From: Lineus longissimus | Lineage: Eukaryota > Nemertea > Pilidiophora > Heteronemertea > Lineidae | Direction of reading: 5' to 3' | DNA length: 64,000 nt | Assembly (NCBI RefSeq): GCF_910592395.1 | Contig: NC_088321.1 | Location: forward strand, 3,660,001 to 3,724,000 | Shown here: positions 6,701 through 48,400 of the stretch, piece by piece | How positions within the stretch are numbered: the first letter of the stretch is position 1 | Layout: every line of letters begins with the position of its first letter | Notes under the pieces: generated by a model | Told to the model about the DNA's origin: nothing | What the model saw: only the letters and a program-made list of their open reading frames with translations | Databases searched by the model: none | Made by a program: the position numbers and the translations under genes

Positions 6701-9268
6701 AGCCTAAAATGACACCAGGACATAAGAGTCACGTCCACTACATAAAACGCCAGTGTTGGTACGGAGTTTTTGCGCTTACACCTGTTAATTTTCCCCTGGA
6801 AAACGCCGGTGCTAGAAAACGCCGGTGTTTTCTTGTCACGGCGATGGATTCAGGGCTAAATGGGGGCTAATTTAAGCACGGCGTTTTATATAGTGTAATC
6901 ACAAAAACGCCGGCGTTAGTAAGTTTCTACACTCGGCGACAGGCGGCGTGGCATTTTGTGTCGGTCAATCGCAACTCCAACAATAACAAAAAATCGGAGA
7001 GTTCTACAGGAATTTCATATACACCACGCCATCTGTCACCGTGTTCAGTATCTGCTTCCATGTAGTAGAAGTCCTCGCCGTGTCTTCTCCGGGCTTTTTC
7101 TGGTTCGGAGTATCCCCGGGGTTTAAAAACGCCGGGGTTTTCCATGTAGTGGACGTACTACTATTATAGAAGAAATCGATTTCACATAAGGCAGACAATA
7201 GTGAAATGAACAACCAGTCCGTCTCAACCTGTCAAGCTCGAAGCAACATGCGACTCATTTTGCTGTGCTGGGCCACAAATACTAAAATAGATCACAGATA
7301 CACTGGCAAAATTTGGCGAGTAATATTTATATAAATTTTATATAAAATTCGACTCCTCTAAATTTGATATATAGAAAACTTTGCAGAGACTAACCTGTGT
7401 AGTATGTTATGTTCGTGAATGTGGCGAATGGCTGCCACCATCTGTTGGAAGATTTCTAGTATCTCTTTCTCGTCCAGTGGAGCGTCCCTATGAGAGAGGT
7501 ATTGAGCTAGCGTCCTGGAAAAAGGAATCGAGGAAAATAAAAAATTGCAACTTTTTACATGAGCATAGGATTTCCTTCTCGTCCAGTGGAGCGTCCCTAT
7601 GAGAGAGGTATTGAGCTAGCATCCTGGAAAAAGGAATCGAGGAAAATAAAAAATTACAAGTTTTTACATGTGCATAGGATTTTCTTCTCGTCCAGTGGAG
7701 CGTCCCTATGAGAGAGGTATTGAGCTAGCGTCCTGGAAAAAGGAATCGAGGAAAATAAAAAATTGCAAGTTTTTACATGTGCATAGGATTTTCTTCTCGT
7801 CCAGTAGAGCGTCCCTATGAGAGGTATTGAGCTAGCGTCCTGGAAAAAGGAATCTAGGAAATTAAAAAATTGCAACTTTTTACATGAGCATAGGATTTCC
7901 TTCTCGTCCAGTGGAGCGTCCCTATGAGAGAGGTATTGAGCTAGCGTCCTGGAAAAAGGAATCTAGGAAATTAAAAAATTGCAACTTTTTACATGAGCAT
8001 AGGATTTCCTTTTCGTCCAGTGGAGCGTCCCTATGAGAGAGGTATTGAGATAGCGTCCTGATATGAAATGGCCAGGGCCATTGTGCTCACCTCATGTGGA
8101 GGAAAGATGGATAAAGAGCATGGTATTGTGTCATGTAGTGTTAGGTTTGATGTAGGTCCAAGCAATTACAATTTCCCCAAAATGGCCAATTTACAGTACA
8201 TTCGACCTCTGTGACCTTGATGAAATGGCCAGGGCCATTGTGCTCACCTCATGTGGAGGAAAGATGGATAAAGAGCATTGTATTGTGTCATGTAGTGTTA
8301 GGTTTGATGTAGGTCCAAGCAATTACAATTTCCCCAAAATGGCCAATTTACAGTACATTCGACCTCTGTGACCTTGAAAAGTAGGTCAAATCAAAGAAGA
8401 CCCGGGTGACACATTGAATGGTTGTTAGAATTAGATGTACCTATGATATAAAATTGGTGCCAATCGGGCAAGTCATTACTAGGAATAATGGCATTTTGAA
8501 GAATTTAGGATTTGGCCCCCTCCCTGGAGGCCAAATGGCAAATCAGATCGCACCAAACTTCGGTACCTGAGATCACCTGACCAAGGGGTACATGTGTACT
8601 TAATTTGTGATCAATAGTCATTGCAGTTAAGAAACGTGCCATAGTTACGGTCTGACAGCGAATTTACGCCATTTGACCTCTGTGACCTTGACAAGAAGGT
8701 CAAATTAAAAACCTGTGTGACATATACTGTATGGTGGTTAGATGTACCCATGATATCAAATTGGTGGCAATCGGGCAAGAAGTTAAGGAATAATCACATT
8801 TTTAAGGTTTTTGGATTTTGCCCCCTGGTGGTTAAGTGGTGAATCATATTGGACCAAACTTCAGTCCCTGAGATCACCTGACTAAGGGGTAAATGTGTAC
8901 CAAATTTGGTATCAATAGTCATTGCAGTTTAGAAACGTGCCATCGTTACATCCTAACGGCCAATTTACACCATTTGACCTCTGTGACCTTGAAAAGGAGG
9001 TCAAATCAAAAACCCGGAGGATGTATGATGCACCTTTGCTAGAAGTACCTACCATATTTTTTTCAAAATTTCCCGACTACTATTAAGGGAGATATTGCAT
9101 ATTTTCACTTTTAACGTTTGGCCCCCTGGTGGCCAAACCATGAAACGAATCAGACCGAAACTTGGTCTCCAAGGTGTCATTACATAAGGGTACATGTGTA
9201 CCAAGTTTCAACTCAATAGCTCTAACAGTTACGAAACGTGCCCTGCTAACGGACGACGGACGACGACG

Positions 9269-9300
<32 letters not shown>

Positions 9301-12300
9301 ACGACGGACCCACGGTATGGGATAAGCTCACCTCTGCTAAGAGGTGAGCTAAAAAGGAATCGAGGAAAATAAAAAATTGCAACTTTTTACATGAGCATAG
9401 GATTTCCTTCTCGTCCAGTGGAGCAGATTTTGTGCCATCAATTTTCACATTTTCCAGCAAGTGCAGTGACTTGTTTACAATAGGGTGCATTTTTTATTCA
9501 AATTTTCATTTTCACTTTGCCAATTTTTTATGTGATCAAATTCAGCATGACACATTTTCATTCAACGATTAAAAAGTTTGAAACGAACTTCAATCAGTTT
9601 GGTAAAATACATGAACCACTTCTTCATTTTGGCACTGGCACCCTTCAACTTCAAGCACCGTTTCCAAAAATTCCTTTATTCTCTTCTCAAGCAAGTGGCA
9701 CCTTGAAACTTTGTGCCTGCATCTCATTCAATTAATTGTTGCGATTAAAAATTCTTCTGGAAGTATTCCCCCAGTTCGGAGAAATTCAGAAAAACTTTAA
9801 CCGCAACAAATTCCTGGCACAAGCTGGAATTAAAGTGCATTTTGTCCAAACGAGAGTAAGGACTGCCCGCTATGAGAAGTTGTTTCCAACTCTCAAAGTC
9901 GGGCGTGCATGCACAGCTCTGTCAGTGCCCACCTATCTGCCTCTGATGCCATTTTGAGTTGCTGATTCTGAATGTAGCCCCTGAATGTTTTGTTAGAGAC
10001 CAAGGTTAGAGACACCTAAGCCTAAGTAGTACTATTGCACTTCAAATCAAAGTGTAAAGCTAATACTTTCACACCAAATTGTTTGCGTCAGATCTTCAGA
10101 CTTGAATCAGCACTAATTCGACAGTTTGTTTATATCTATGTATTTGTTTACAGCAACTCTGAAAGGCGATAGCACCTTGGCACATATATCTGGTCATAAT
10201 GTCATTAGAATTTGCCACACACTACAAGAGAAAATTTTATTCTTCAATTGTTCAAACCAAAATAAGTGTTAGAATTTGCCACACACTACAAGAGAAAATT
10301 TTATGAGAGAGGTATTGAGCTAGCGTCCTGGAAAAAGGAATCGAGGAAAATAAAAAATTGCAACTTTTTACATGTGCATAGGATTTCCTTCTCGTCCAGT
10401 GGAGCGTCCCTATGAGAGAGGTATTGAGCTAGCGTCCTGGAAAAAGGAATCGAGGAAAATAAAAAATTGCAACTTTTTACATGTGCATAGGATTTCCTTC
10501 TCGTCCAGTGGAGCGTCCCTATGAGAGAGGTATTGAGCTAGCGTCCTGGAAAAAGGAATCGAGGAAAATAAAAAATTGCAACTTTTTACATGAGCATAGG
10601 ATTTCCTTCTCGTCCAGTGGAGCGTCCCTATGAGAGAGGTATTGAGCTAGCGTCCTGGAAAAAGGAATCTAGGAAATTAAAAAATTGCAACTTTTTACAT
10701 GAGCATAGGATTTCCTTCTCGTCCAGTGGAGCGTCCCTATGAGAGAGGTATTGAGCTAGCGTCCTGGAAAAAGGAATCGAGGAAAATAAAAAATTGCAAC
10801 TTTTTACATGAGCATAGGATTTTCTTCTTGTCCAGTGGAGCGTCCCTATGAGAGAGGTATTGAGCTAGCGTCCTGGAAAAAGGAATCTAGGAAATTAAAA
10901 AATTGCAACTTTTTACATGTGCATAGCGCTTTATAATGCAGAACAGCCTCAAAGCACTTTATATTATCTGGTTTCAGTCGCTCAAAGCGCTTCACATTAC
11001 CCCTAGCTATTGGCCTGAACATTCGTGGTTCAAGCTCGACTCTCTGGAAGTATCACAGGTCCAAGCTGCAGCTTTACAGCACTCTAGACTAACATTCAGT
11101 TTGTCATCACTGTCAGCTAGGTACCCATCTACTCCTGGGTGAAGAGAAGCAAGTGAGGTAAAGTGCCTTGCTCAAGGACACAAAGGCGAAAGATAATCTT
11201 CAGAAAAGTTCAGGGTTTTCATGACAAGTCAATCTGTAAACAATTTTGGAACGAGATGCGAGTTGACTTTGTCGATGATTAAAGGCCTACGCGGTTCGTA
11301 AAAGAATTTGAATTTGTAATTGAATTTGAAACCTTTAATTGCGTAAATACAAACTGAATATAAATTTCAACACTGCCGTTGTGTAGACTGATGTACAAAT
11401 ACAGTGGAACCTCCCATAGTGGACACCTCTCTATTAAGGACAACCTCTCTATTAAGGACAACCTCTCTATTAAGGACAACCTCTCTATTAAGGACAACCT
11501 CTCTATTAAGGACAACCTCTCTATTAAGGACACTAGTTCTGGTTCCAAATTGGTTGTTTCGATTAAATTTGACCTCTCTAATCGGGACACCTCTCTATTA
11601 AGGATAACATTTGTCAGTCCCAATGATGTCCTTTAAAATTGGGAGGTTTTACTGTGCTACTCTAAAGTGAAAAGTGAAAAGTGACTGGGCAGCCGACAGC
11701 TTGGTAATATTGCCATTACCATAGGACAGCACTTGTCAGTCCCATGGGTGTCCTCAATAGAGTGGTTCTACTGTAACTTACTCCCCATTTGCATACTCCA
11801 TTTCAATCATCAGGACGCCGTCTTCTATTAAGGACAACCTCTCTATTAAGGACACTAGTTTTGGTCCCAAATTGGTTGTTTCCATTCAATTTGACCTCTC
11901 TAATCAGGACATCTCTTTATTAAGGACAGCTCTTGTCAGTTCCATAGGTGTCCTGAATAGAGAGGTTCTACTGTAACTTACCCCCCATTTGCATACTCCA
12001 TTTCAATCATCAGGACGCCGTCTTCTATTAAGGACAACCTCTCTATTAAGGACACTAGTTTTGGTCCCAAATTGGTTGTTTCCATTGAATTTGACCTCTC
12101 TAATCAGGACACCTCTTTATTAAGGACAGCTCTTGTCAGTCCCATGGGTGTCCTCAATAGGGTGGTTCTACTGTAACTTACCCTCCATTTGCATACTCCA
12201 TTTCAATCATCAGGACGCCGTCTTCTTCAAAACTATCGTAATAACTGATGATGTTCGGATGGTCTAAGACGGCAAGAACTTTCACCTGAAAAGACGAGAT

Positions 12301-15300: not shown

Positions 15301-18300
15301 GTAGGTGGACAGTAGCATACAGTAGTCTAGTCGAGCTAGCTCATTTTGGACCTTAACCGGAAACAAATTGCAACAGAAATTATTCCACTGGCACTGCCAT
15401 TCATTCAGGGAATGAATAATTATTAAAAGAGTTATGTCGCAATGTGGCAGAATGTATGGTGATCGCACTGATGACCGCAATGTGGCAGAATGTATGGTGA
15501 TCACACTGATGACGACCTAGGTCGCAATGTGGCAGAATGTATAGTGATCGCACTCATGACGACCTAGGTTGCGATGTGGCAGAATGTATGGTGATCGCAC
15601 TGATGACGACCTAGGTTGCGATGTGGCAGAATGTTTGGTGATCGCACTGATGATGATCTCGGTCGCAATGTGGCAGAATGTATGGTGGTCGCACTGATGA
15701 TGACCTAGGTCACAATGTGGTTGAAAGTATGGTAAGTCAAGTAATGGGTAATTGAAAGCCATGGCTTCCAAAACTCAAAGATGCTTGATTGAACTCGGGG
15801 AGCTAGAATCTTCACAAATACACACCCAACAAATGATATTGCAACTCTGTGACCAATTAATATACTTTCAGTTTTGAAGTATCCAGTTGTGCAGTGAGTG
15901 ACCGGCGTATTAAGAGCCTGATTTACCCACCTTTCCCAACGGTTCTGATCTTCTCAAAGCCGGCCATTGACTGCTGGTAATGTCCGCTCCATCCACGGAG
16001 ACACTCAAGACGGAAGTAGAGCTCCCCAACCGTACTGGAAAAAAGTCCATAAGATTTAGTTCCGTGGATTTTTAGAATTACACCAAGCAGGTTGTCCGTA
16101 ATAGAGAGGTGTCCACTAAGAGAGGTTCTACTGCAGTAGAATCTCTCTATTAAGGACACCCTAAGGACTGACAAGTGCTGATCTTAATAGAGAGGTGTCC
16201 TGGTTAGAGAGGTCAAATTGAATGGCAACAACCAATTTGGGACCAAAACTAGTGTCCTTAATAGAGAGGTTGTCCTTAATAGAGAGGCATCACTAAGGGA
16301 GGTTCTACTATATGCTTAAATTTACCATTCATGTTCTCACCTTTTTGAGGACGGGTCTTTGACCAGCTCTGCTCCGACAATGTCTCGAGACAAACCAACC
16401 GACACCTGAGGAAGAAAAGTCGACAATGAAGACCTGAAAAACCCGACATTTTTTTCAGACATTACGTTATTCAGCCCCTGACCTCGCAGTTAATAATAAA
16501 ATTCAGGGGTCATACTAAACAGCGTCCACCAGGTTTAAAAGCATATGTGACCCGTTCCAGCAAAACCAGTCGCATGTCGCTCTGAGCTTGGCAGGTTGAA
16601 ACAGACTGTTTGTTCATTTCACGATTGTCTGCCTTTTGTGAAATCTGACGACATCAATTTCTTCTATTATCTCCTGGTGTCATCTAGGCTCATCTTATGT
16701 GCGACATGCGACTAGTTTTGCTAGAACAGGTCACATATTTAAAGCCATCAAGATAAAATCTAATATTCATAAACGAAATAAGCAGGACATTTTCTGATCG
16801 TTTCATGACATTTGTGTGCTAGATTAGCAAGTTGTTGTCTAAAATGTACCAGCGTTCACTGGTCACCCAGTCGGTGGCCTTGTTGGATTTGACTTGGAGG
16901 AAATGATAGGGCTTCCCTATACTACAGGGGCCTTGTGATTTTAGACAACATCTCCCTTATTTTACACCCAAATGTCATGAAATTTTCAGGAAATGTGTTC
17001 TATGGTGTACTTATTCCATTTATGGCTTCTAAATTTTATTTTGATGACTTGATACCCGACTTTAAACCTGGTGGACGCTGTTTAGGATGACCGGAATTCA
17101 GGCCTAGCCCAATACATGGTCTATTGTCTTTCATTGTCTTTAAACAAAGTCCGTTTGGACCTTGGTCTAAATTCCCATTGTTCTACTGACTTATCAAAGG
17201 GTTTAAAGGACAAATCATGATCACATGGACCCCCAAGAAACAGCTTTCATGGAGGTTGATACGCTTAAACACGAAAATGCAAATAAAGGTATATGGGGAC
17301 CCTCACCCCCTTATTTGGGCCCAGGGGATGTTCATTGTCCCGTTTACAGTAGTGAACTTCCAGTAATTGAAACACAGTGGAACATCTCTAAGCGGACACC
17401 TCTGTAATTAGGACACCCTCTCTAAGACACTGATTTTGGTCCCAAATTGGTCATTTTCACCTCTGTTATCAGGTCACTTCTCTATACTTCCTTAGTCATC
17501 TTCGTCCCTAGTGCTGGGACATAAGGCCTTCACCTCACTACAAAGCACATCGACTCTCAGACCCAAGGGTGTCCTTAACCTCTTGAATCCCGGTGACCGA
17601 CCAGTCGCTTATTTTGAAATACATTTTTTTTCCAACGACCGACAGGTCGGTCTCAGTGATATTTTTATTCCCTTGAGCTGGGACGCTAGCTTATTGCTTG
17701 TTTTAGCGTGTATGATGTACAGTAGGGTCAGTTAGAGCATGCCTGGGTAGATGGCGCCTCGGTACCAGACTTTGGCGGTTGTATGCGGGTGCTATACATC
17801 GTGAAAGTCAGACACAATTACGCAACCACATGACCACCCTGGGATCCCGGGATTTTCAAGTTCTGGGATTCAAGAGGTTAATAGAGCGGTTCTAAAGTAC
17901 CTGCATGGTTACTTACCCCCAGCAGAGCCTCTAGCTCCTTGACGATGCCCTGTCCGCCATCTTGTCCCTGAGCGGCGTTACATGCCAAGAAGTCGAGGCG
18001 GAGGTTCGCTGCCTCCTTGTTGCCATGGAGACTGAAGAGTTTGGAGAAGAAGCCACGAATACCTGCGTGGTCAAGGACGGTATCTTTATTGAGCTGTAAA
18101 TTTAGAGATTCAAAATTGAACATGGAAGACGGAAGTGTAGAACCTTTTTTAGCCACATCATTTTCAATGTTGTCAGGCCAAGCTGGCTACCGAGTGGACT
18201 GGTTATCACTGGCGATGGTAGCCACTGAACCAGTTCATTGTTAAGGTCAGGTCAGTGCAGGGTTGTTGCTGAACCTTTTTTAGCTGCATCATTTTCAATG

Positions 18301-21300
18301 TTGTCAGGCCAAGCTGGCTACCCAGTGGACTGGTTATCACTGGCGGTGGTAGCCTCTGAGCCAGTTCACTTTTAAGGTTAGGTCAGTGCAGGGTCGTTAC
18401 AGGGTCGTTACCTTTTTTAGCCACATCATTTTCAATGTTGTCAGACCAAGCTGGCTACCCAGTGGACTGGTTATCACTGGCCGTGGTAGCCACTGAACCA
18501 GTTCACTGTTAAGGTCAGGTCAGTGCAGGGTCGTTGCTGAACCTTTTTTAGCCACATCATTTTCAATGTTGTCAGACCAAGCTGGCTACCGAGTGGACTG
18601 GTTATCACTGGCCGTGGTAGCCACTGAACCAGTTCACTGGTAAGGTCAGGTCAGTGCAGGGTCGTTGCTGAACCTTGTTTAGCTGCATCATTTTCAATGT
18701 TGTCAGACCAAGCTGGCTACCCAGTGGACTGGTTATCACTGGCCGTGGTAGCCACTGAACCAGTTCACTGTTAAGGTCAGGTCAGTGCAGAGTCGTTGCT
18801 GAACCTTTTTTAGCCACATCATTTTCAATGTTGTCAGACCAAGCTGGCTACCCAGTGGACTGGTTATCACTAGCCGTGGTAGCCACTGAACCAGTTCACT
18901 GTTAAGGTCAGGTCAGTGCAGGGTCGTTGCTGAACCTTTTTTAGCCACATCATTTTCAATGTTGTCAGGCCAAGCTGGCTACCCAGTGGACTGGTAATCA
19001 CTGGCGATGGTAGCCACTGAACCAGTTCACTGTTAAGGTCAGGTCAGTGCAGGGTCGTTGCTGAACCTTTTTTAGCCACATCATTTTCAATGTTGTCAGA
19101 CCAAGCTGGCTACCCAGTGGACTGGTTATCACTGGCGGTGGTAGCCACTGAACCAGTTCACCGTTAAGGTCAGGTCAGTGCAGGGTCGTTGCTGAACCTT
19201 GTTTAGCTGCATCATTTTCAATGTTGTCAGACCAAGCTGGCTACCCAGTGGACTGGTTATCACTGGCGGTGGTAGCCTCTGAACCAGTTCAATGTTAAGG
19301 TCAGGTCAGTGCAGGGTCGTTGCTGAACCTTTTTTAGCCACATCATTCGAAATATCACTTGTAGTACTTCATTTTGAACTTTTTGTATCTCTTTTGCCAA
19401 AAGTCTATAGGGCAGAGACATGTATTCATCCACAGGCAGAAGTGTGGCACTGACACATAGTCCGTACTGAACTGTGAAGCTGTGGTAAATACATGACTGT
19501 GATGGGTGAAAGTGGATTTATTCTTCAATCTTTGGTGGATTCTTAATCTACAGAGCCAGGCCATAACAGGGATATACTTTTTGATAATTAATTTAAGGAT
19601 ATATTGTCTCACTGGCCAGTAGAACTTGTATTCTAATAGGCCCATATCAGTCCGTGAGTGACGATTTGATGGCAATGCTGTCCCAAATCAATTTTTTTCT
19701 CAGGCAATCGGTATTGGAATGCTTTGAATTTTTACTATTATTTCGATAAAAGCCTCTGCATAACACATATAAAATTTGGTGGGAATTAAAGCACCCTTGG
19801 TGTACTTTTTTCACCAACGTATATTCATTAAAATGTACACAGAATGTACACGCTGGCTAATAGAGGTCTCTGGCCTATACACTACATATAGGAATGCCTG
19901 GAAATCTTCAGGGAGATGCTGGAAAAAAATGTGTAGACCCGCAGGAGCTAAAGGGTTAAAAAAACAAAAAGGGAAATTTTATGGGTTTTTGCCACAGGCC
20001 GCTGACCCCAGCGCGGTTGTCTGGTGCCCCTGGTTCAACCTAGTGCCTCATGACCTGCTCATAGTAAGTAGCCCCGAATAACCTACCTTTTCCTCTTTCC
20101 CTCACAACTGTATCACGCCCAACGGGCTATTTATGCTATTTATCATAGTAAGTAGCCTCGAATAACCTACCTTTTCCTCTTTCCAACACAACTGTATCAC
20201 CACGCCCACCGGGCTATTTATGCTATTTATCATAGTAAATAGCCACGAATGACCTACCTTTTCCTCTTTCCCACACAACTGTGTCACGCCCACCGGGCTA
20301 TTTATGCTATTTATCATAGTAAGTAGCCTCGAATAACCTACCTTTTCCTCTTTCCAACACAACTGTATCACCACGCCCACCGGGCTATTTATGCTATTTA
20401 TCATAGTAAATAGCCACGAATGACCTACCTTTTCCTCTTTCCCACACAACTGTGTCACGCCCACCGGGCTATTTATGCTATTTATCATAGTAAGTAGCCC
20501 CGAATAACCTACCTTTTCCTCTTTCCCACACAACTGTATCACGCCCACCGGGCTATTTATGCTATTTATCATAGTAAGTAGCCCCGAATGACCTACCTTT
20601 TCCTCTCTCCCACACAACTGTATCACGCCGACCGGGCTAATTATGCTATTTATCATAGTAAGTAGCTCCGAATAACCTACCTTTTCCTCTTTCCCACACA
20701 ACTGTATCACGCCCACCGGGCTATTTATGCTATTTATCATAGTAAGTAGCCCCGAATGACCTACCTTTTCCTCTTTCCCACACAACTGTATCACGCCCAC
20801 CGGGCTATTTATGCTATTTATTATAGTAAGTAGCTCCGAATAACCTACCTTTTCCTCTTTCCCACACAACTGTATCACGCCCACCGGGCTATTTATGCTA
20901 TTCATCATAGTAAGTAGCTCCGAATAACCCTTACATTTCCTCTTTCCCACACAACTGTATCACGCCCACCGGGCTATTTATGCTATTTATCATAGTAAGT
21001 AGCCCCGAATGACCTACCTTTTCCTCTTTCCCACACAACTGTATCACGCCCACCGGGCTATTTATGCTATTTATCATAGTAAGTAGCTCCGAATGACCTA
21101 CCTTTTCCTCTTTCCTACACAACTGTATCACACCAACCAGGCTATTTATGCTATTCATCATAGTAAGTAGCTCTGAATAACCTACCTTTTCCTCTTTCCC
21201 ACACAACTGTATCACGCCCACCGGGCTATTTATGCTATTTATCATAGTAAGTAGCTCCGAATAATCCCACACAACTGTATCACGCCCACCGGGCTATTTA

Positions 21301-25830: not shown

Positions 25831-25944
25831 TCACTTATTGACTAATTGAGACATCTAGGCTTCGACATTTTTTCAAACTTAATCAATAACTCTGTGTGAT
25901 TGAGAGTTTGACATGATGACTGGTGTGTGATTTAACTGTAAATG

Positions 25945-26540: not shown

Positions 26541-26637
26541 TTTATTATGCACTGTCCTGAAATCGTGGTGACCTAAGTTTCCGAAGTGAGTTCGATACGC
26601 TGGCATGTCGTCACAGATACATTGATAGTAGTATAGT

Positions 26638-30800: not shown

Positions 30801-32459
30801 TTGGGAATGAGGAAGACCTATGCCAAACTTCGATCTCGCTGCTGGCGACCAGGCTTAAAGCGTTTAGTTGAAGACTTTGTTCGCACATGCCCCAAGTGTC
30901 AGAAATGCAAATCACCACCCAAGGGAATAAGGGCCCCCTTACAGAGTATTCCAGTGGGCAGACGAAACCAAAGGTTGCATATCGATTTTGTGGGGCCCAT
31001 TAATCCACCCTCCAGAAGGGGAAACCGTTATATCATGGTGGTTGAAGATGCGTTCACCAAGTGGCCCGAGGCATGGCCAATGAAAAATCAGAAAGTCTCC
31101 ACCTGTGCAAGAGTTCTAGTCAACGAATATGTCTCGCGTTTTGGTGCACCCGAGGGTATACATTCCGACCAAGGGGGGAATTTTGAATCAAAAATCTTCG
31201 GAGAGATGTGCAGCTTATTAGGCATTGAGAAGACTAGGACAACTGCATATCACCCGCAATGCAACGGTCAGGTTGAAAACCTGAATAAAAGCCTGAAGAA
31301 AATGCTAACAACCCTTGTAGATGAAAAGGGACGGGATTGGGATGACAGATTACCATCAGCACTCATGGCATATAGGTCCAGTATACATGAGTCAACAAAG
31401 GAAACTCCTTTTGCAATGACTTTCGGAGCTGAAATGCAAATACCTCTTGACCTTATGATTGGAACATCTACATGTGGCTCTGCTTCCCCAGAAACAACAG
31501 TATATGTGAAGGATCTCCGAGAGAAAATTGAAACATCATATCGAAATGCCAGGGACAACCTGAAGACGGCTCAGAGGCGACAGCGACAGTACTATGACCA
31601 GAAGATGAAAAATTCTTCTTTTTCCCAGGATGATTTAGTCCTCTTGAGAGACTATCATCTTCGGCCAGATGAGGTTAACAAGTTCCACAAGCCATGGAAG
31701 GGACCTTATAAGATTAAGGAAAAGATATCAGAGGTGAACTATAGGATTGTGCCTCTCGATGGGAAAACCAAGCAAACAAAAGTGGTCCATCTGAACAACT
31801 TGCGGCGCTTCTACATTAGAACGGAGGATGAGCCACGTCGGGTGGATGATCATCCTAATAAAACATCAGAGAAGAAGGATTTCATTGAGAAACTTGAAAT
31901 GGAGTCAGCTGCTGAGAACTCTGAGACTGAGTCTGAAGAAGAGGTAGAGACTATGCCTTTAGAATTTTTGAAACTGCCTATAGGAAGGTCTTGCGAAGAA
32001 ACCCCAGAATCTCGTGGACAAGACAAGCTGATGTCAAGACCAGATTTGAGGGACCCTCTTGGTGCTGCTTTAGATACACCAGAAGGGAAGGGCCGCTTTG
32101 GTACCCCTAACTCTCAATCTGGTTCCCCCGACGTGCAACGTCCAGGGATGGGACCATCAGATGGAGCAGTAGATCCACCAGATGGGGAATCTGCAATAGA
32201 TATTCCAAACCCAGACCTGGATGGCACCGCCTCTTCAATTGATTCATCTGTGTATGATCCAGCAGACGAAGTACCCATGAACAAATATTGCTTAAGACCA
32301 CGTAATGATATGCAGAGGCCTGCACGTTTCCGTTTGTCAATCGATTGCGCCGCGCGTGACACAAACCAACGCGATTCCGCATCAATGCAACAGAACAAAA
32401 TGCGATGGCTCAAGCGCGCCAGAAAGTTAAAATTGAACCGCATCTCAGCAACGACTTAA
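27735..32459 (+). CDS. pol: Pol polyprotein (protease, RT, RNase H, integrase)
   Basis: The open frame overlaps gag by 124 nt in the -1 frame. It is probably made only as a Gag-Pol fusion, so the first methionine at 27735 is unlikely to be a real start. Approximate order in this frame: aspartic protease with LLDTGAAVTLIS (about 112), reverse transcriptase with YLDD (about 595), RNase H with LDTDASDFAVGAVLSQ (about 745), integrase HHCC finger from HEGFAGGHLG to CPKCQKC (about 1015-1058), DDE core with HIDFVG, HSDQGGNF and NGQVENLNKS (about 1081-1180), a GPY/F-like HKPWKGPYKIKE (about 1320), then an acidic Pro/Ser-rich tail. No chromodomain was seen. All catalytic motifs are intact over 1574 codons. 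Confidence 0.96.
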   Translation: MPSKRVFHMPLERPHFQRLPQQAGKRGGGIVGGQHSPEEAVVAPHVDSVVQEENKVSPAENSTLVENSMLNPKATVFEPKPGHSHVTIGSIQLADSSLYLSGKVNDQSTSMLLDTGAAVTLISSDLWDRLDSAKKTLEPAMGSLMSATEEDLHIMGMVDADLQIGSNVYCHPVVVVKKLCHSCLLGSDFFAKHQCTIRYESATLEVGNEEIPLRHQRDELKICRVILGRSVKIPAQTEMIVPGKLARGGEASHLTPGMIEAKRGPTSFTTGRTLVKSNHGKLPIRVANFTDSPIRMRTNQTLGWFHPVTEISGHQDDKHVGARENGEEQEHLAAADIAATSAGTLCTPDPVYSPILGQGQLAAASIAVTSVGTPCTPDPVQSPLQSERLGKLLEKLEIDEIDLTGSQRATLISLIAEYQDIFSMDDLDIGHTTVVEHRINTGDAVPIKQRPRRVPPHQQHFVDETTKDLLDKNLIKESTGPWSSPIVLAKKHDGSFRLCVDYRKLNECTVKSAQPLPRIDDTLGGLAGSCWFSSLDCASGYWQVGVAPEDREKTGFVTGVKQYEWLAMPFGLTGAPATFTRLMNIVLGGVEHCLVYLDDIIVHTPSFDRHIQQLREVFERLRKANMKLKPVKCKLLRRSLKWLGHVVSKDGIATDSEKIRQVQEWPTPKDVGEVRSFMGLAVYYQKYVKNYSEIAAPLHQLTGKNAIFEWTEACEQSFSKLKEALIEAPVLAYPDFSEDAGLFVLDTDASDFAVGAVLSQRQEDGSERVIAYGSKSLQGGENNYCTTRREMLALVKFVKHFRYFLLGKRFLVRTDNIALRWLLNFKDPSGQVARWLECLAEFDFKIEHRAGRLHGNADALSRKPSRVRQHGDCPSCGPTDKKRIDQQTPMDRKTQSVNLASVAVTQAKPSAKSKPQRKVPTLVELPMDWTAEKIGQAQVNDPEINEVYQHVLSKETIIPQSVLQGCSTRTRAVWAQRQLLELEEGVLYFKSPDQSTQSRLVLPVALIKPVLVQAHEGFAGGHLGMRKTYAKLRSRCWRPGLKRLVEDFVRTCPKCQKCKSPPKGIRAPLQSIPVGRRNQRLHIDFVGPINPPSRRGNRYIMVVEDAFTKWPEAWPMKNQKVSTCARVLVNEYVSRFGAPEGIHSDQGGNFESKIFGEMCSLLGIEKTRTTAYHPQCNGQVENLNKSLKKMLTTLVDEKGRDWDDRLPSALMAYRSSIHESTKETPFAMTFGAEMQIPLDLMIGTSTCGSASPETTVYVKDLREKIETSYRNARDNLKTAQRRQRQYYDQKMKNSSFSQDDLVLLRDYHLRPDEVNKFHKPWKGPYKIKEKISEVNYRIVPLDGKTKQTKVVHLNNLRRFYIRTEDEPRRVDDHPNKTSEKKDFIEKLEMESAAENSETESEEEVETMPLEFLKLPIGRSCEETPESRGQDKLMSRPDLRDPLGAALDTPEGKGRFGTPNSQSGSPDVQRPGMGPSDGAVDPPDGESAIDIPNPDLDGTASSIDSSVYDPADEVPMNKYCLRPRNDMQRPARFRLSIDCAARDTNQRDSASMQQNKMRWLKRARKLKLNRISATT
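27804..27846 (+). promoter_or_regulatory. -1 programmed ribosomal frameshift signal
   Basis: The heptamer GGGAAAC at 27804-27810 is in phase for X_XXY_YYZ (gag codons GGA AAC). A 7-nt spacer follows, then a stem: CGGGATTGT (27818-27826) pairs with ACAGTCCCG (27838-27846) over nine base pairs (one G-U) around an 11-nt G-rich loop. The shift moves gag into the pol frame before the gag stop. Confidence 0.85.
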
Positions 32460-33356: not shown

Positions 33357-33360
33357 AATG

Positions 33361-34650: not shown

Positions 34651-34659
34651 TCAACAAAA

Positions 34660-36432: not shown

Positions 36433-39400
36433 ATGGATCCAGCATTGCTGAAGGAGAGAGAAGCTTTCAAAAAGAGGGCGCTAGCACAACCATCAGTCGA
36501 AAAGAGAAAGGCCCAGAAAAGAACTGAAAATGATCGCAGTACTAAGAAGGCACGGCCAGCGCCAAAACCTAAAGGTAAGCACCCTACCCTTGAAAGCCTC
36601 ATACTTACTTAGGGCTCTTCGTCCCTAGTGGCGCATAAGGCCACAACACAACCTCCAGCCTTTTCAGTCTCGTGCTGCCCGTTGTGCCTCGTCCCATGTC
36701 AGCCCCATCAGTTTCAGCTCCTCTGACATAGTCCTCCTGGTAAGCACCCTACCCTTGCAAGCCTCATACTTACTTAGGGCTCTTCATCCCTAGTGGTACA
36801 TAAGGCCACAACACAACCTCCAGCCTTTTCAGTCTCGTGCTGCCCGTTGTGCCTCGTCCCATGTCAGCCCCATCAGTTTCAGCTCCTCTGACATAGTCCT
36901 CCTGGTAAGCACCCTACCCTTGAAAGCCTCATACTTACTTAGGGCTCTTCGTCCCTAGTGGCGCATAAGGCCACAACACAACCTCCAGCCTTTTCAGTCT
37001 CTTGCTGCCCGTTGTGCCTCGTCCCATGTCAGCCCCATCAGTTTCAGCTCCTTTGACATAGTCCTCCTGGTAAGCACCCTACCCTTGAAAGCCTCATAAT
37101 TACTTAGGGCTCTTCGTCCCTAGTGGCACATAAGGCCACAACACAACCTCCAGCCTTTTCAGTCTCTTGCTGCCCGTTGTGCCTCGTCCCATGTCAGCCC
37201 CATGAGTTTCAGCTCCACTGACATAGTCCTACTTCATTTGACTTTGGGCCAGCCTCGTTTGTTCTTTCCCTGGGGGCTCAAATGCAGGGCAGTCTTTGGT
37301 ATGCTGCTTGGATTCATCCAGAGGACATGTCTAAGCCATCAAAGTCTGCAGCATCCGATTACGTTGGCAACGTTAGAACTCTAGATCTGCGTCAGCTGAC
37401 GGATCGGAGAGCTTCATTAGAGATTATCCTTGGCCAGAACACTTGGCAGATCCATCGCAGACACCTGTTTGAAAGCCTCATAGCCTAGTGGTTGATAAAA
37501 GTACTGTGGGTTACCACGCAATTCGGTCCAGATTCAGAACCCAGGATTTGTGTTCTTGATGAACCGTTGTAGATTTAAGGAACTAATATTCCTGACTCTT
37601 CACAGTCATTCGAATAAGACTTATATTCCAAAACACCTGAGTGAGAATATTTCGTCACATGATGGATAATGTAGCCTTTATTATTCAATATATTTCATTT
37701 GAGATGTTTTTGAATAGAAATTGATACCTCACTGTCGGTATTGATTGTCTCACAAAAACCACTCAGATGGAGCTAAGATATTGGCTATGGTTTTGGTGTA
37801 CATTTTAGCGCCACCCTCGCGGTTTCGGTGAGACAACCAATACCTCCAGTTCGGTATCAATTCCTTGAAGCCAAAGCTCCTAGTGTCTGGTGTTTATGCC
37901 AGGGCAAGTTAAAGTCCCCACCAAGTGAGAAACATGAGTAGCTGGCGTGGACTTCCCTCCTTTGGCCAAAAGACCGGGGGCATAATGGTCAGTATGATGG
38001 CCGCGTCCCAGTGTTAACCAGTTCAACTAGAACATCACGATTTAAACAGGCTCGACGGCTTCGGGGGAGTTAAAACTGGCTGTGAAAGAATTTTGAAGGC
38101 CAAGTTTGCATGAAAGATTAAGCCTAATGATTTTCATAGCTTTGCTTGTTGGCCGAAAACAGAAAAGTTTTTGAGTGGCTGTTTTAGTTTTGGTCTACTC
38201 TAATTGCAGCTGAAAATGTTTATGAGTTGAGCCTTTCAGTGAGTTTACTGTTTTATTCATTTCAGCCGATTTTAACTACAAGGCAATGCAAGGAAGTTCA
38301 CAGTTTAAGTTTGGAATATTGGCAAAAATAGTTAAATATATGAAGGTAAGATAAGAATACTAATCACTTGGTTTCGTTGACTGTTTTTTCCACCAGGACA
38401 AAAGTACCGAAAAGTGTTTTGCCGCTGAAGTAAAATGATCAAATGTATGTGCAAATTTGAATAAAGGAGCCTTATAGCTGAGTGGTGAACTCCGACTACC
38501 ACTCAAAAGGCCCCGGTTCGATCCCGGGTAGAACCCAGGAGTGTATTTCTGGATGAACCGGTGTGGCTTTCAAGGAACGAAAATTACCGGCTCTCCACAG
38601 TCCTTTGAATGAGATGTAAAACCGAGGTTCCTTTAATCTGGTGTCTATGCCAGGGCAGGTTACAGACTCCACCAAGTGAGAAACATGAGTAGCTTGCGTG
38701 GACTCTACAGGGCTGCCTAACCTTACACATTTGGGGGAAATCTCACACACAGGCCTGTTTACACTTAGTTAGGGCCATTTTACACTTTGACTCCAGAAAA
38801 TGTCTTTAAAATTGTGCCAAAATCATCAGAAGACCCGACAATGACATTTCCCTTGCTGTTTTACCCTTTTTACTGAGGGTTTTAGTTTTACACATTGCTG
38901 GACGAAGGCAGTTGTGACACTCCATCCGGCCGAAGTCTGGAGTCACTAGGCCTTGCCGAAGGCGTAGTCGCTAGGCCAATAAACCCAACTGGCGTCTAAC
39001 CATACTGGCACGCATGAACGCTCATCCCGCCTTGGAGGAGGAATACTCCGTGGAGAAAATCACCTCCAAGTGCAGAGCAAACGCCCAGGAAGGGGAAGGA
39101 TAGAAGAAGGGAAATTGGATTCCATCAAATTGGATATCGTGATGCGATTTTGGGCTGCACTCACCCTGTTTCTGCCCCTCTCATGTTCGAAGTTGCTCAC
39201 AATGAAAAACAAATCCCCAACTGATACCAGCTCATATAGGCCAATAGAACTTCAGGTGACTTCTTCAATCATAAAATTAACGCGGTTTTGGAAGAATATC
39301 TTATTTTCCTCTCCATCGGAAAAATAGAAGTTGTCCTTTAAAGAAATCAATCAGCAGCAGCTAGGTAGGCAAGAAAAAGCTATACAAAGTCCTTAATAGG

Positions 39401-42400
39401 TGTCCCTCCAATCTCATCGTACATCAAAACTATTCACGCTTGTGCGAGGAATGTTATAGTGCTGTGTCAAACATTACCAGAATTATCGGAATTCAGGAAT
39501 ACCAGACGACTTGGAATCCTGACTTGGCACTCAATGCCGGGAATTCAGGATTTTGAATCAGCAGAGTTTGCCCTGATGACGCCAGCGTCGACACTGATGA
39601 AACATAGGCCTACCCGATGTGAGTTGTTTTTCTCAGTGATTCATTCCTAACTTATTGAAACGTTCCTAGAGATTGCATTGTCAAACTCGTGTATCGTCCG
39701 CTTTTAATATTTCAGCAACGGCATCAACAGGGAGACACTTATCCATTATCAATTGATGACATTCTTGACGAAACAAATCAACTTGATGTCGGAGCACGGC
39801 ATAAACAATGGCTATCGACCGAGGTAGGTTGTTTCCTCCCACTGTTCACCCTCCTCCAAACTCACTTTATCCCTGGTACCATCAGGGTAAGACCAATATA
39901 CTGATATTTGATGAAATATGGCTATCAACCGAGGTAGGTTATTTCCTCCCACTGTTCACCCTCCTCAAAACTCACTTTATCTCCGGTACCATCAGGACAA
40001 GACCAATATACTGATATTTGATGAAATATGGCTATTGACCGAGGTAGGTTGTTTCCTCCCACTGTTCACCCTCCTCCAAACTCACTTTATCCCTGGTACC
40101 ATCAGGGCAAGACCAATATACTGATATTTGATGAAATATGGCTATTGACCGAGGTAGGTTGTTTCCTCCCACTGTTCACCCTCCTCCAAACTCACTTTAT
40201 CCCTGGTACCATCAGGGCAAGACCATTATACTGATATTTGATGAAATATGGCTATTGACCGAGGTAGGTTGTTTCCTCCCACTGTTCACCCTCCTCCAAA
40301 CTCACTTTATCCCTGGTACCATCAGGGCAAGACCATTATACTGATATTTGATGAAATATGGCTATTGACCGAGGTAGGTTGTTTCCTCCCACTGTTCACC
40401 CTCCTCCAAACTCACTTTATCCCTGGTACCATCAGGGCAAGACCAATATACTGATATTTGATGAAATATGGCTATTGACCGAGGTAGGTTGTTTCCTCCC
40501 ACTGTTCACCCTCCTCCAAACTCACTTTATCCCTGGTACCATCAGGGCAAGACCATTATACTGATATTTGATGAAATATGGCTATTGACCGAGGTAGGTT
40601 GTTTCCTCCCACTGTTCACCCTCCTCCAAACTCACTTTATCCCTGGTACCATCAGGGCAAGACCATTATACTGATATTTGATGAAATATGGCTATGGACC
40701 GAGGTAGGTTGTTTCCTCCCACTGTTCACCCTCCTCCAAACTCACTTTATCCCTGGTACCATCAGGGCAAGACCATTATACTGATATTTGATGAAATATG
40801 GCTATTGACCGAGGTAGGTTGTTTCCTCCCACTGTTCACCCTCCTCCAAACTCACTTTATCCCCGGTACCATCAGGGCAAGACCATTATACTGATATTTG
40901 ATGAAATATGGCTATTGACCGAGGTAGGTTGTTTCCTCCCACTGTTCACCCTCCTCCAAACTCACTTTATCCCCGGTACCATCAGGACAAGACCAATATA
41001 CTGATATTTGATGAAATATGGCTATTGACCGAGGTAGGTTGTTTCCTCCCACTGTTCACCCTCCTCCAAACACACTTTATCCCTGGTACCATCAGGGCAA
41101 GACCATTATACTGATATTTGATGAAATATGGCTATTGACCGAGGTAGGTTGTTTCCTCCCACTGTTCACCCTCCTCCAAACTCACTTTATCCCTGGTACC
41201 ATCAGGGCAGGACCAATATACTGATATTTGATGAAATTCTTGTTGAGACCAACCAATGTAAGGTCACCCTCACCCTGCACACCACCTCTCCCTTGGGTCA
41301 TCTTCTGCATCTCATGAGGATACGGGCCATCCATTGAGTATGTACGTACTGAGCGAGGAGACAGTTTAGGAATTTTGGGGAAAATGCGTACAGCTGTAAA
41401 TTTTGTCCAAATTGTGTGTACAAGGGTAGGGGTCTCAAAATCCCAAGTTTGATGCGTACATACAGTGGAACCTCCCTTAGCGGACACCTCTCTATTAAGG
41501 ACACTAGTTTTGGTCCCAATTTGGTAGTTTCTATTCAATTTGACCTCTCTGATCAGGACACCTCTCTATTAAGGCCAGCACTTGCCAGTCCCGAAGGTGT
41601 CCTTAATAGAGAGGTTCTACTGTACTTAATGGATGGCCCCATACTGGTATCAAGAGCCTTTCGAATCCAGCACCCAAAATATGATTCTGGGCCAGATGAC
41701 CATCCATGAGCATGAATGTAGTATAGGACTGAAAAGCCTGTAAGACCTGGGTACAAGGTATTTTTAAAGTGGTCTGCATCCGCAAACTGTGCGTGATATA
41801 ACGCTGAAAATGCGGGATATTGATGATAGATACATGATCTGATAGATGTTAAAGCGAAATGTTTATATCAATACTGGTTTGGCAGTAATTCTTCAAAACA
41901 CCATGAAAACGATATTTCCTCTCAATCAACTAGACTTTGATGTTTTCACCCCAAATCTTGGTTCAGTACTCAGACTGACATTGTCTTCCATGTCATCAAG
42001 AAAATTTTCAAAAAATTTTGATATTTTGAGAACATGTCCAAGTTGTCATTTTGCAATATTTGGAAGAATAAATGGTTAATTAGCGTTGATATCGATATCT
42101 CACTTAGCATCAATCAGATTATGTATCTATCATCATTACGTTCCAAAATTTTCAGCAACATAATGGAAGAGTTTTGGCTCCACTTACCACTGTGCATGCG
42201 CATGGTGAATCTCTTTTCACCAGGAAAAAACTGAAGCTATTACAGTGGAACCTCCCTTAGCGGACACCTCTCTATTAAAGATAACCTCTCTATTAAGGAT
42301 AACCTCTCTATTAAGGACAACCTCTCTATTAGTATTAAGGACACTAGTTTTGGTCCCAAATTGGTTGTTTCCATTCAAATTGACCTCTCTAATCAGGACA

Positions 42401-45400
42401 CCTCTCTATTAAGGACATCACTTGTCAGTCCCGTTGGTGTCCTTAATAGAGAGGTTCTACTGTACATCGGTGTCGTGAAAAGGTCAGATAGGGACCTGGA
42501 ATGTAAAGTGCCACCTCGTTTGCTGATCAAAATATGAACCTCTCGAATGTCTCGTAACCCTTGTAGGCCCTCGTCAACAATCAGGACACCTCTCTATTTA
42601 GGACATCACTTGTCAGTCCCGTTGGTGTCCTTAATAGAGAGGTTCTACTGAACTTCGTAGTCTTGAAAAAGTCAGACAGGGACCTGGAATAGAAAGTGCC
42701 ACCTTGTTTGCTTATCAAAATCTGAACCTCTCTAATGTCTCGTAACCCTTGTAGGCCCTCGTCAACAATCAGGATACCTCTCTATTAAGGACATCACTTG
42801 TCAGTTCCGTTAGTGTCCTTAATAGAGAGGTTCTACTGTACTTCGAAGTCTTGATAAAGTCAGACAGGGACCTGGAATATAAAGTGCCACCTTGTTTGCT
42901 GATCAAAATCTGAACCTCTCTAATGTCTCATAACCCTTGTAGGCCCTCGTCAACAATCCCAAGATCAACGTCGTGGATGACAATAAGTTTGTCTTCCGCC
43001 CGAAGTATAACATCCGAGACCGGAGGGGGTTAATGCGATTGCTGGAGCGGAATGACCTGAAAGGATTGGGCGGTGTTTTGATGGACGACGTCGAAGAGGC
43101 TGTGCCGAAATGTGGGCGAGTTATTCAGGTAGGCGCCGAGCTGACACGAGTGTCCTCTTTAACGCTATAACACCTAGAGCCAGCGCAAGGGCTTATTCCC
43201 CTTGGCCCCGACTTTATTTTACCTGGAAATCATGTTTTTTTCTCCAGTGAGATCGACAGCGGTTGTCACCGGGCGCCTCCAGGTGTTATAGGGTTAAGAA
43301 ACTCTCTAACATGTTTATGCTGCAATAGACACCAACCTAGCATCTTCCATTGATGTCCATTGCAATATTACAAATTCAGTTTTTTTTTTGCAAACTTCTC
43401 TACAGGCTCATGCTGCACCCGAATGCCACCAACCTTAATTCGAATGCTCTATTAAATCACGGAGTTCAAGCATACCGTGCTATACACCCAAGTGAAGAGT
43501 CCATTGATCATGTTCTCAGTTATGCAGAGTACTTCATAACACTCGGGTATGTTTTTGTATCGCTATACACCAACAAGTTAAAATGTATGTTTGTTCATCC
43601 TGAATATGAAGGAGGCAATAATTGGTGGAGCCCCTGAAATAAGGCCCAGGTTTGATCCCCTTCTCAAGGAACAGTGTGGTCAACACTGCTTCCTACCCTG
43701 CAATAAGGCCCAGGTTTGATCCCCTTCTCAAGGAACTGTGTGGTCAACACTGCTTACTACCCTGCAATAAGGCCCGGGTTTGATCCCCTTCTCAAGGAAC
43801 TGTGTGGTCAACACGGCTTCCTACCCTGCAATAAGACCCGGGTTTGATCCCCTTCTCAAGGAACTGTGTGGTCAACACGGCTTCCTACCCTGCAATAAGG
43901 CCCTGGTTTGATCCCCTTCTCAAGGAACTGTGTGGTCAACACTGCTTACTACCCTGCAATAAGGCCCGGGTTTGATCCCCTTCTCAAGGAACTGTGTGGT
44001 CAACACGGCTTCCTACCCTGCAATAAGACCCGGGTTTGATCCCCTTCTCAAGGAACTGTGTGGTCAACACTGCTTCCTACCCTGCAATAAGGCCCGGGTT
44101 TGATCCCCTTCTCAAGGAACAGTGTGGTCAACACTGCTTCCTACCCTGAAATAATGCCCGGGTTTGATCCCCTTCTCAAGGAACTGTGTGGTCAACACTG
44201 CTTCCTACCCTGCAATAAGGCCCGGGTTTGATCCCCTTCTCAAGGAACTGTGTGGTCAACACTGCTTCCTACCCTGCAATAAGGGCCGGGTTTGATCCCC
44301 TTCTCAAGGAACTGTGTGGTCAACACTGCTTCCTACCCTGCAATAAGGCCCGGGTTTGATCCCCTTCTCAAGGAACTGTGTGGTCAACACTGCTTCCTAC
44401 TCCGCAATAAGGCCCTGGTTTGATCCCCTTCTCAAGGAACTGTGTGGTCAACACTGCTTCCTACCCTGCAATAAGGCCCAGGTTTGATCCCCTTCTCAAG
44501 GAACTGTGTGGTCAACACTGCTTCCTACTCCGCAATAAGGCCCTGGTTTGATCCCCTTCTCAAGGAACTGTGTGGTCAACACTGCTTCCTACCTTGGAAT
44601 AAGGCCCGGGTTTGATCCCCTTCTCAAGGAACTGTGTGGTCAACACTGCTTCCTACCCTGCAATAGATCCGGGTTTGATCCCCTTCTCAAGGAACTGTGT
44701 GGTCAACACTGCTTCCTACCCTGCAATAAGACCCGGGTTTGATCCCCTTCTCAAGGAACTGTGTGGTCAACACTGCTTCCTACCCTGCAATAAGACCCGG
44801 GTTTGATCCCCTTCTCAAGGAACTGTGTGGTCAACACTGCTTCCTACCCTGCAATAAGACCCGGGTTTGATCCCCTTCTCAAGGAACTGTGTGGTCAACA
44901 CTGCTTACTACCCTGCAATAGATCCGGGTTTGATCCCCTTCTGAAGGAACTGTGTGGTCAACACTGCTTCCTACCCTGCTATAAGGCCCGGGTTTGATCC
45001 CCATCTCAAGAAACTGTGTGGTCAACACTGCTTCCTACCCTGCAATAAGGCCCGGGTTTGATCCCCTTCTCAAGGAACTGTGTGGTCAACACTGCTTCCT
45101 ACCCTGCAATAAGGCCCGGGTTTGATCCCCTTCTCAAGGAACTGTGTGGTCAACACTGCTTCCTACCCTGCAATAAGGCCCGGGTTTGATCCCCTTCTCA
45201 AGGAACTGTGTGGTCAACACTGCTTCCTACCCTGCAATAAGGCCCGGGTTTGATCCCCTTCTCAAGGAACTTTGTGGTCAACACTGCTTCCTACCCCGCA
45301 ATAAGGCCTGGGTTTGATCCCCTTCTCAAGGAACTGTGTGGTCAACACTGCTTCCTACCCTGCAATAAGGCCCGGGTTTGATCCCCTTCTCAAGGAACTG

Positions 45401-48400
45401 TGTGGTCAACACTGCTTCCTACCCCGCAATAAGGCCCGGGTTTGATCCCCTTCTCAAGGAACTGTGACCGATGGGACTGGTCATCTGTGGCCGTGGTGGG
45501 GTAAAGGAAGGAAGAACTGCAAATATAGTGGTTTGAAATGTATGATAACAGCTCTTGGCATAAGGTATAAATGGACTGGCATTGAGCGATAGGGGTCAAG
45601 CCCTGAGAAGGCCTTGAATTACATAAGTTGGAATAAAGGAGAGAATGAGAAGAACTAGATTGTGCTGCCATCTAACTTTATGCAGCACAACTACAATACA
45701 AATAATTTAAAGGGATACTATAAGATTCTCCAACAGAACATTCCTGGCTCAGCACAAAACCTACAATGTATGAAATACGTGAGGGTCTGTCGGATGAGAC
45801 TGATAGCCGTGGTCCCTTGTACCTGAGTGCCTATGCCAGGACAAGTAAAAGATACCACATAGGTCGACAGTAGCCTTCAGTGGACTCCAACTCTCCTGCA
45901 GAGATCAAAGGGTAATGACGCTGGTATTGTTATGATATTGGACTGTGGCTTCATAGGGTATTGGTACGATGCTCTTGACATCAGTGACAAGGCTTGCTCA
46001 AAATACAATAGGTTTTTGATCACTTTTAACCAAATTATGATATTTTTCCAGGAAGAGTTAACATGAGGTAAAGACAGTCAATGAGTTTCACACTGCAATC
46101 TCTTAGACCGTTGTCTAAGCTTCTTTGAACATGCTGGTTGGCTGGTTGGAAGAATGCGTTTTAAAACTTATATGCAGTGGTACCTCCCTTAGCGGACACC
46201 TTTCTATAAGGGACAACCTCTCTATTAAGGACACCTCTCTATTAAGGACACTAACTTTGGTCCCAAATTGATTGTTTCCATTCAATTTGACCTCTCTAAT
46301 CAGGACACCTCTCTATTAAGGACACTAGCTTTGGTCCCAAATTGGTTGTTTCCATTCAATTTGACCTCTCTAATCTGAACACCTCTCTATTAAGGACACT
46401 AGCTTTGGTCCCAAATTGGTTGTTTCCATTCAATTTGACCTCTCTAATCAGGACACCTCTCTACTTAGTACTTGTCAGTCCTGAGGGTGTCCTTAATAGA
46501 GAGGTTCTACTTTGGATTGTTTAAACTTCACTTGATCTTGCGCATTGATAAAGTAGTCCGAATTCTTAACTCCTTAAAAAGTTCAGCAAGTTCCATCAGC
46601 TGGCTTGCAAAAATAGGAGGACGACGCATGTTTGAAGTAATGACATCACAATGCATTACATACTGTGTTGAAATCTAACGTCGTACACGACATAAGGTCA
46701 TTAAGGTCACGACATTAGGTCATGAAGGTCATGTATAGGGATGACCTGGACAAACATTTAGAAGGACCAGAGGGGGTGGTACTTTCTTACTTTCTACCAT
46801 AATTACTCCTGAATTGAAAGCCTGTTCAATCTCACTTTCTACCACAATTTCTCATGAATTGAAAGCCTGTTCAATCTTACTTTCTACCACAATTTCTCAT
46901 GAATTGAAAGCCTGTTCAATCTTACTTTCTATCACAATTTGTCATGAATTGAAAGCCTGTTCAATCTTACTTTCTATCACAATTTGTCATGAATTGAAAG
47001 CCTGTTCAATCTTACTTTCTATCACAATTTCTCATGAATTGAAAGACTGTTCAATCTTACTTTCTACAGCAATTGGGCAGCCAAATCACCAAAATCACGC
47101 GACCCGCCGATAAAAAAGAAATCCTCTTCTACAACGATAAGAGCTTTGACTTCACAGTTGACGAGGGTAAGGACACTCTGATTGCTCAGTGGTTCTCATT
47201 TGCATAGGAAAGCTTTTGGTTTTCAAAGTACTATGAGTCTGATATCAAGTACAGTTTGTTTGCTTGTTTTTTCCAACTACAGTAGAGGTTGTCATCTAGT
47301 TTCGAATGTTTTAACCCCGCACTGTCCCGAGACCTTTCAGGACTTTGATGAGCTTCCATTTTTTAAGAAGTTTTATTTGTGGCACTATAAAATACAATGA
47401 AGACAACAGTGTAGGCCTTTCACTACAAGACTACAATGCCCTTTCAAAATGTTCTGCTTTTTATTCAGAATTTATAAAATTATGGCGAGGCGTGTCCGTA
47501 GATGGGGTAGATGAAAATAAGATAGATGAGTACCTGGACCAGCGGGGAATCACTACCATGCAGGACGTCGGAGCAAAAACAGCAGTAAGTTCCAATGGGT
47601 GGTGCATAACTGATGGAACAGCCCTGATGTATTGTTATGTAATGGTATGTGTATGCCGCAAGGCTGTTCCAAGGTATGAACTGCATCCTATGGCAAAGGT
47701 TGCAGTAGCTTCAATGGGTGGTGCAAACTGATGGAACAGCCCTGATGAATTGTTTTGTAATGGTACGTGTATGCGGCAAGGTCGTTCCAAGGTATGAACT
47801 GCAGCCTGTGGCAAAGGTTGCGATAGCTTCAATGGGTGGTGCAAAACTGATGGAACAGCCCTGATGAATTGTTTTGTAATGGTACGTGTATGCGGCAAGG
47901 CCGTTCCAAGGTATGAACTGCATCCGGTGGCAAAGGTTGCGGTAGCTTCAATGGGTGGTGTATAATTGATGGTACAGCCCTGATATATTGTTGCGTAGTT
48001 GAATGTGTATGCCGCAAGGCTGTTCCGAGAAATTTGTGTCCCCACAGTCATTGATGAAAATGTATACCCACACTCACTGCTCACTCTCGCAACTTGACAG
48101 TTCTATTTTGTAGTTGATCTCACTGGTTTCTATGCGCTGTGGGAGGTAGTTAGCCTTTCCACAGCCGGCCAGTGGGAGGGGCTGCCTCCTATAGATCCAC
48201 AGCCAAAGCTGGTGTTATGATCAGAGTGTCCGTCACTGCTCACTGTTCTATTTTGTAGTTGATGTCACTAGTTTAATTCTATGCGCTGTGAGAGGTAGTT
48301 AGCCTTTCCACAGCCGGCCAGTAGGAGGGGCTGCCTCCTATAGATCCACCGCCAAAGCTAGTGTTATGGTCAAAGTGTCCGTCACTGCTCACTGTTCTAT

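Follow-up and report, generated by a model that had tools for sequence, protein, structure and literature searches.

Tandem arrays have their edges at splice junctions of two unrelated genes in a 64,000-nucleotide stretch of chromosome 14 of the bootlace worm Lineus longissimus, a ribbon worm (G000:C14:3660001-3724000, hereafter the window; positions given without a prefix refer to it). The genes code for a NEK8-like kinase (minus strand) and GTF2E2 (plus strand), and an array edge lies at 8 of the 35 internal splice junctions in the window. We consider it probable, at roughly three chances in four, that tandem duplications made by end joining spanned these junctions by chance, survived and then expanded neutrally, giving minisatellites of the 'mirage' type.

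Tandem Repeats Finder (TRF) returned 55 rows for the window, which were merged by hand into 34 arrays covering 26% of the window and 27% of the gene span at 2900-60200. Exon borders of both genes were modelled by hand as well, and a junction was counted as lying at an array edge within -10 to +60 bp, a rule fixed after the data were seen. All eight junction arrays named in an earlier reading of this DNA (the original prediction) were found by TRF in their places. Seven of the predicted periods stood; the one at the GTF2E2 exon 6 donor is 119 bp and not 120 bp. Each junction had also been placed inside the edge unit of its array, which is correct for the six arrays that carry a splice site within the unit (four at donors and two at acceptors); the remaining two, at GTF2E2 exons 5 and 6, only abut the junction. 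Two more junctions had been said to have arrays within 10-45 bp, and the distances are 14 bp for the 5355 donor and 46 bp for the 18093 acceptor. The arrays as delimited by TRF are listed below with the exonic part of the edge unit and the number of units with an intact dinucleotide, counts which take in the real splice site copy.

20059-21969, minus strand: 84-bp array at the kinase exon 2 donor (exon 21929-22029), 41 exonic bp in the edge unit, GT in 20/22; the border is also found in the NCBI models
11723-12226, minus strand: 200-bp array at the kinase exon 7 donor (exon 12182-12285), 45 exonic bp, GT in 3/3
7467-8060, minus strand: 109-bp array at the kinase exon 8 acceptor (exon 7395-7514), 48 exonic bp, AG in 5/5
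10302-10926, minus strand: second, detached block of the 109-bp kinase exon 8 units, AG in 6/6
36574-37230, plus strand: 165-bp array from the GTF2E2 exon 1 donor (exon 36433-36574), 1 exonic bp, GT in 4/4
39808-41237, plus strand: 110-bp array at the GTF2E2 exon 3 donor (exon 39716-39823), 16 exonic bp, GT in 13/13
42391-42958, plus strand: 188-bp array at the GTF2E2 exon 4 acceptor (exon 42943-43128), 16 exonic bp, AG in 3/3
46785-47074, plus strand: 45-bp array abutting the GTF2E2 exon 5 acceptor (exon 47070-47166), 5 exonic bp, AG in 1/7, i.e., the real copy only, with doubtful unit alignment
47593-48026, plus strand: 119-bp array beginning 8 intronic bases past GTF2E2 exon 6 (exon 47469-47584), abutting only, 0 exonic bp, dinucleotide intact in 1/4, with doubtful unit alignment

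As the unit carries a splice site in six arrays, the introns concerned contain mostly intact decoy sites. The available gene models nevertheless place splicing at the exon-side sites. The seven-exon GTF2E2 model (279 amino acids) matches the NCBI L. longissimus protein at 100% as printed (the cluster representative has one different residue out of 279), the kinase exon borders agree with four NCBI L. longissimus kinase models, and in both genes the exons are joined at the exon-side sites. Use of this site is firm at the GTF2E2 exon 3 donor, since the array is found there in all 13 copies of the gene described below. At the other junctions an NCBI model could stem from an array-less copy. None of the four kinase models examined shows an inner site at kinase exon 2, and these models may likewise derive from array-less copies. 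Of the 11 periods, just 4 are divisible by three, so that use of inner sites would mostly disrupt the frame. Tolerance of the decoy splice sites is thus supported by the gene models.

The window lies within a multi-megabase segmental amplicon (G000:C14:2329047-8400279), which permits the same arrays to be compared between copies. GTF2E2 exon 3 has at least 13 direct matches (98 to 100% identity) on one strand of chromosome 14, from 2.34 to 8.40 Mb and 0.41 to 0.78 Mb apart, and kinase exon 2 is matched almost in full at 12 places on this chromosome. We compared 10 kb around each of 13 GTF2E2 copies, the window's own included; across them the unique stretch used for comparison is 96.2 to 100% identical (median 97.4%). 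The exon 3 donor array is present in 13 of 13 copies with a constant edge base and 4.0 to 23.0 units (TRF). Exon 4 was located in 12 copies, and its acceptor array occurs in 8 of them, always with 3.0 units. Exon 1 was likewise located in 12, and its donor array occurs in 10; copy L017 has an irregular form of it, judged by eye, and L021 a single unit. TRF reported no array at the exon 1 start, the exon 2 junctions, the exon 3 acceptor or the exon 4 donor in any GTF2E2 copy where these were found. The kinase exon 2 array is present in 7 of 12 copies and reaches 34.8, 33.8, 22.9 and 22.9 units in four of them; the window has 22 junction copies, another array has at least 18.4 units (it is cut by the locus end) and one is known from repeated partial matches only. 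It is missing in the remaining five copies, two of which were viewed over 1.5 kb only on that side.

Closely similar copies differ in array length. L010 and L013 are 99.5% identical and have 9.0 and 11.0 units, and L018 and L020 are 99.0% identical and have 21.9 and 7.0 units (TRF). No difference separates L016 from L019 in the unique stretch, and the first block measures 4.6 units in both, but L016 has 16 junction copies in all and L019 has 20; L009 matches L016 with 16. The junction-copy counts of L010, L012, L013 and L020 each include one spurious far match. The edge unit of the exon 3 array is nearer to the edge units of other copies than to the inner units of its own array in all ten testable copies out of 13, and only 38 of 110 exon 3 units have their nearest unit in their own array. 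Such grouping of edge units across copies, together with the variable unit numbers, indicates that the true junction stays fixed and the decoys drift.

This variability bears on whether the decoys have a function. The original prediction had suggested a tolerated role for them, and its first half has held: decoys are mostly intact in six of the eight arrays and the NCBI models use the exon-side site. A positive role, such as slower splicing or the production of isoforms, could draw on the same intact decoys and on the 84-bp kinase unit, which is an open frame in long runs. We find it very improbable, as unit numbers vary several-fold between near-identical copies, some copies are array-less, most periods are not multiples of three, and the four kinase models, possibly from array-less copies, lack the inner exon 2 site. 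Since long repeats are difficult to assemble, the arrays could also be suspected of being an assembly artefact. This is hardly credible, given that the edge base is identical in 13 copies with different unit numbers, that unrelated genes have a like structure, and that the 391-Mb assembly, in which chromosome 14 takes up 16.76 Mb, is described in the portion of its report drawn on here as built from HiFi reads with Hi-C (PMC8593623).

Copies in which an array is unexpanded allow the founding joins to be read at two loci. At GTF2E2 exon 4, the exon (...CAACAATC) and the intron (...TAATCAGG) of unexpanded copies have AATC in common at the join. The kinase exon 2 unit contains a 15-bp filler that is not found in unexpanded copies. 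Either kind of join is a typical product of microhomology or polymerase-theta end joining. Presumably, then, the path would begin with end joining at a microhomology or with filler, which makes an ordinary tandem duplication that by chance takes in an exon edge; the joins are read at these two loci and we infer them for the other arrays. The spliceosome would stay on the exon-side site, a step supported by the gene models, so that the extra copies would leave with the intron, the protein would be unaltered and the duplication could survive. The copies, being unconstrained, would subsequently gain and lose units, and the edge unit with the real splice site would stay fixed. Gain and loss of units around a fixed edge is what is seen among the GTF2E2 copies, slippage or unequal exchange being the likely cause.

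Whether chance placement suffices was evaluated in the window and in an independent sample. In the window, rotation of the 32 gene-span arrays against the 35 junctions gave a mean of 1.23 junctions at array edges (8 observed, P = 0.0005), random placement of each array reached 8 junctions in 0 of 20,000 trials, and the founding-unit expectation is 1.58 (P = 0.0002). The window was, however, chosen for study on account of its junction arrays. The independent sample comprises 13 myosin-motor loci (90.8 kb), which lie either on other chromosomes or, where on chromosome 14, at a distance of 9 Mb. They were taken because their exons cluster, and the selection preceded any repeat search; several myosin-motor matches with scattered exons were left out. 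These loci have 18 arrays of period 20 or more covering 4.2% of the sequence, against 26% of the gene span in the window. Three of the arrays span donors (L030 donor 1699, period 72; L036 donor 6935, period 46; L036 donor 3155, period 137) and one abuts (L032 donor 3401, period 61, beginning 6 bp past the donor).

Automatic calls for the myosin loci gave 40 introns (80 junctions), several of them poorly scored, and missed one spanning and one abutting array that were found by reading. The exons were therefore recounted with a model built from exon fragments, which gave 97 pieces (some low-scoring) plus one found by eye; doubling this total sets an upper limit of 196 junctions. With up to about 196 junctions, 4 edges of arrays with period 20 or more were seen against 2.7 expected (P = 0.29), and 3 spanning arrays against 1.9 (P = 0.30). 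Without the period limit, a period-17 array is added and 5 edges stand against 4.1 (P = 0.39). Fewer true junctions would lower the expectation: among the 80 first-called junctions are 2 of the 3 spanning arrays, with 0.8 expected (P = 0.18). A chaperonin locus (L042) gave no TRF row, and its junctions are outside the counts. The predicted excess over random placement thus holds for the window and not significantly for the myosin sample. Array placement is close to random, and the high number in the window is most likely due to its very high array density and to its choice for study, perhaps also to relaxed constraint where a gene has a dozen copies.

Several observations weigh against founding by chance. 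The window excess is clear in itself (8 against 1.2 to 1.6 expected), and pooling the window with the myosins gives 12 against about 4. Both numbers would suit a process that starts duplications at exon edges, e.g., through co-transcriptional R-loops, spliceosome-linked stalling or breaks at splice sites. This mechanism, put forward in the original prediction, is possible but unproven, and we regard it as quite improbable: exon-side breakpoints in the window and myosin arrays are scattered from 0 to 57 bp within the exons, the two joins read are of different type (microhomology and filler), the independent myosin sample shows no significant enrichment, and the window was selected for the very feature being counted.

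The rates of edge junctions in the window and in the myosin loci also differ (P = 0.02). Along with the gap in array coverage and the presence of at least 13 gene copies, this may point to relaxed constraint, i.e., a dozen copies of GTF2E2 and the kinase would let duplications persist that single-copy genes would lose. We see this as a tentative explanation with the odds somewhat against it. Only two amplified genes enter the test, myosin genes, which may or may not be single-copy, carry such arrays as well, and the coverage gap may have other causes, e.g., intron length. The broader idea that junction-spanning duplication is actively favoured in the amplified region, either by edge-started duplication during transcription or by relaxed selection, seems to us rather doubtful; if true, it would make the chromosome 14 amplicon an ongoing natural experiment on how intron remodelling begins.

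A further difficulty is the size of the exonic part of the units. It averages 0.26 of the unit (n = 11 arrays) and is smaller than uniform (P = 0.002), which purely random founding does not predict. It is also compatible with arrays that expanded within the intron until the exon halted them. Arrays would then start in introns and grow outward until stopped by selection on the exon, and their edges would pile up at junctions, as several do within about 10 bp (GTF2E2 exons 1, 5 and 6 and the L032 donor at 3401). Such a barrier is an unlikely account of the set, as 7 of 11 arrays contain 16 to 57 exonic bp and the unexpanded exon 4 copies indicate a join within the exon.

Other points concern the individual steps. 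Unexpanded kinase exon 2 copies carry about 8 bp absent from the units and are hence not the exact parent of the array. A copy that contracted to a single unit also cannot be distinguished with full certainty from one that never expanded. One NCBI kinase model is truncated directly past exon 7, which bears an array in the window copy; exon-side use rests on gene models, and rare splicing at decoys may occur.

Further features of the window and of the loci compared were recorded as follows.

60024-60134, plus strand: last coding exon of GTF2E2 with the stop, completing the 279-amino-acid model that matches the NCBI protein (hand model and protein match)
26632-32459, between the kinase and GTF2E2: long terminal repeat retrotransposon pol frame and, as judged by eye, a gag-like frame
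49728-52528 and 53921-56721: two Mutator-like transposase frames (PF20700; one copy scanned), each beside a 199-amino-acid frame, the copies being 4193 bp apart and their listed reading frames alike by eye
3450-3676, 11421-11532, 16253-16287, 42266-42331 and 46194-46463: recurrences of a 17/18-bp motif (ACCTCTCTATTAAGGAC or its complement)

The 17/18-bp motif occurs in small arrays and inside larger units and is perhaps a dispersed element with internal repeats. Both exons could be placed in 11 other copies; the distance from the kinase to GTF2E2 is shorter than in the window in 10 of these and longer in one. An extra proline in the NCBI kinase models was considered as evidence of other splice-site use and rejected, as it corresponds to a 3-bp difference at the start of kinase exon 3: the window copy is without one proline codon between 18093 and 18094, and all 8 other loci in which exon 3 could be located have it. 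One NCBI kinase model lacks exon 3, which is skipped. Locus L039 has two exon pieces (G000:C1:1809808-1809903 and 1811021-1811119), separated by 1.2 kb, that both cover positions 120-152 or so of the myosin motor and are perhaps alternative exons.

In their features the bootlace worm arrays match the 'mirages' of amphioxus, minisatellites at exon-intron boundaries. In the parts of the reports used here (PMC3087553, PMC3902484), amphioxus mirages are described in Adh3, troponin C, the globins BflGb6 and BflGb9, and PGBD5, with somatic instability reported for Adh3. By those descriptions the two systems share minisatellite-like copies spanning donors or acceptors with AG or GT in many but not all copies, length instability (here 4.0 to 23.0 units over 13 paralogous copies) and edge units that escape homogenisation (here in all ten testable copies at the exon 3 donor). 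Regular splicing is said to be kept in amphioxus; here, NCBI gene models end at the exon-side site. The present arrays differ in having a nemertean host, up to about 35 units and periods of up to 200 bp, in occupying eight junctions of two adjacent genes, and in belonging to a multi-copy amplicon with unexpanded copies. No mirages outside amphioxus are described in the literature found, and no nemertean report of such arrays appeared among the titles and abstract openings of the open-access matches listed.

Since such arrays occur in a ribbon worm and in unrelated genes, they may be a widespread side effect of tandem duplication in animals whose genes have many introns. With thirteen near-identical copies that have or lack a given array, one can read directly how arrays were founded and grew and how stable the true site is, and the proposed path from boundary duplication to intron change becomes testable.

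Two other systems are comparable. Human genes in segmental duplications have variable internal tandem repeats (De Grassi and Ciccarelli, 2009, PMC2812944); as in our case, the portion of that paper used describes long-unit arrays that differ between recent paralogues, some of them at exon-intron boundaries. Half of the human repeats lie in coding exons and the boundary ones may form new introns, whereas the models here show an unchanged protein. In intron gain by tandem duplication, as outlined in the sections used (PMC4974935, PMC3443670), a boundary-spanning or AGGT-bearing segment is copied and yields extra splice signals. The duplication of boundary segments in the bootlace worm likewise yields extra splice signals, but no new intron is apparent in the gene models and the copies remain within an intron.

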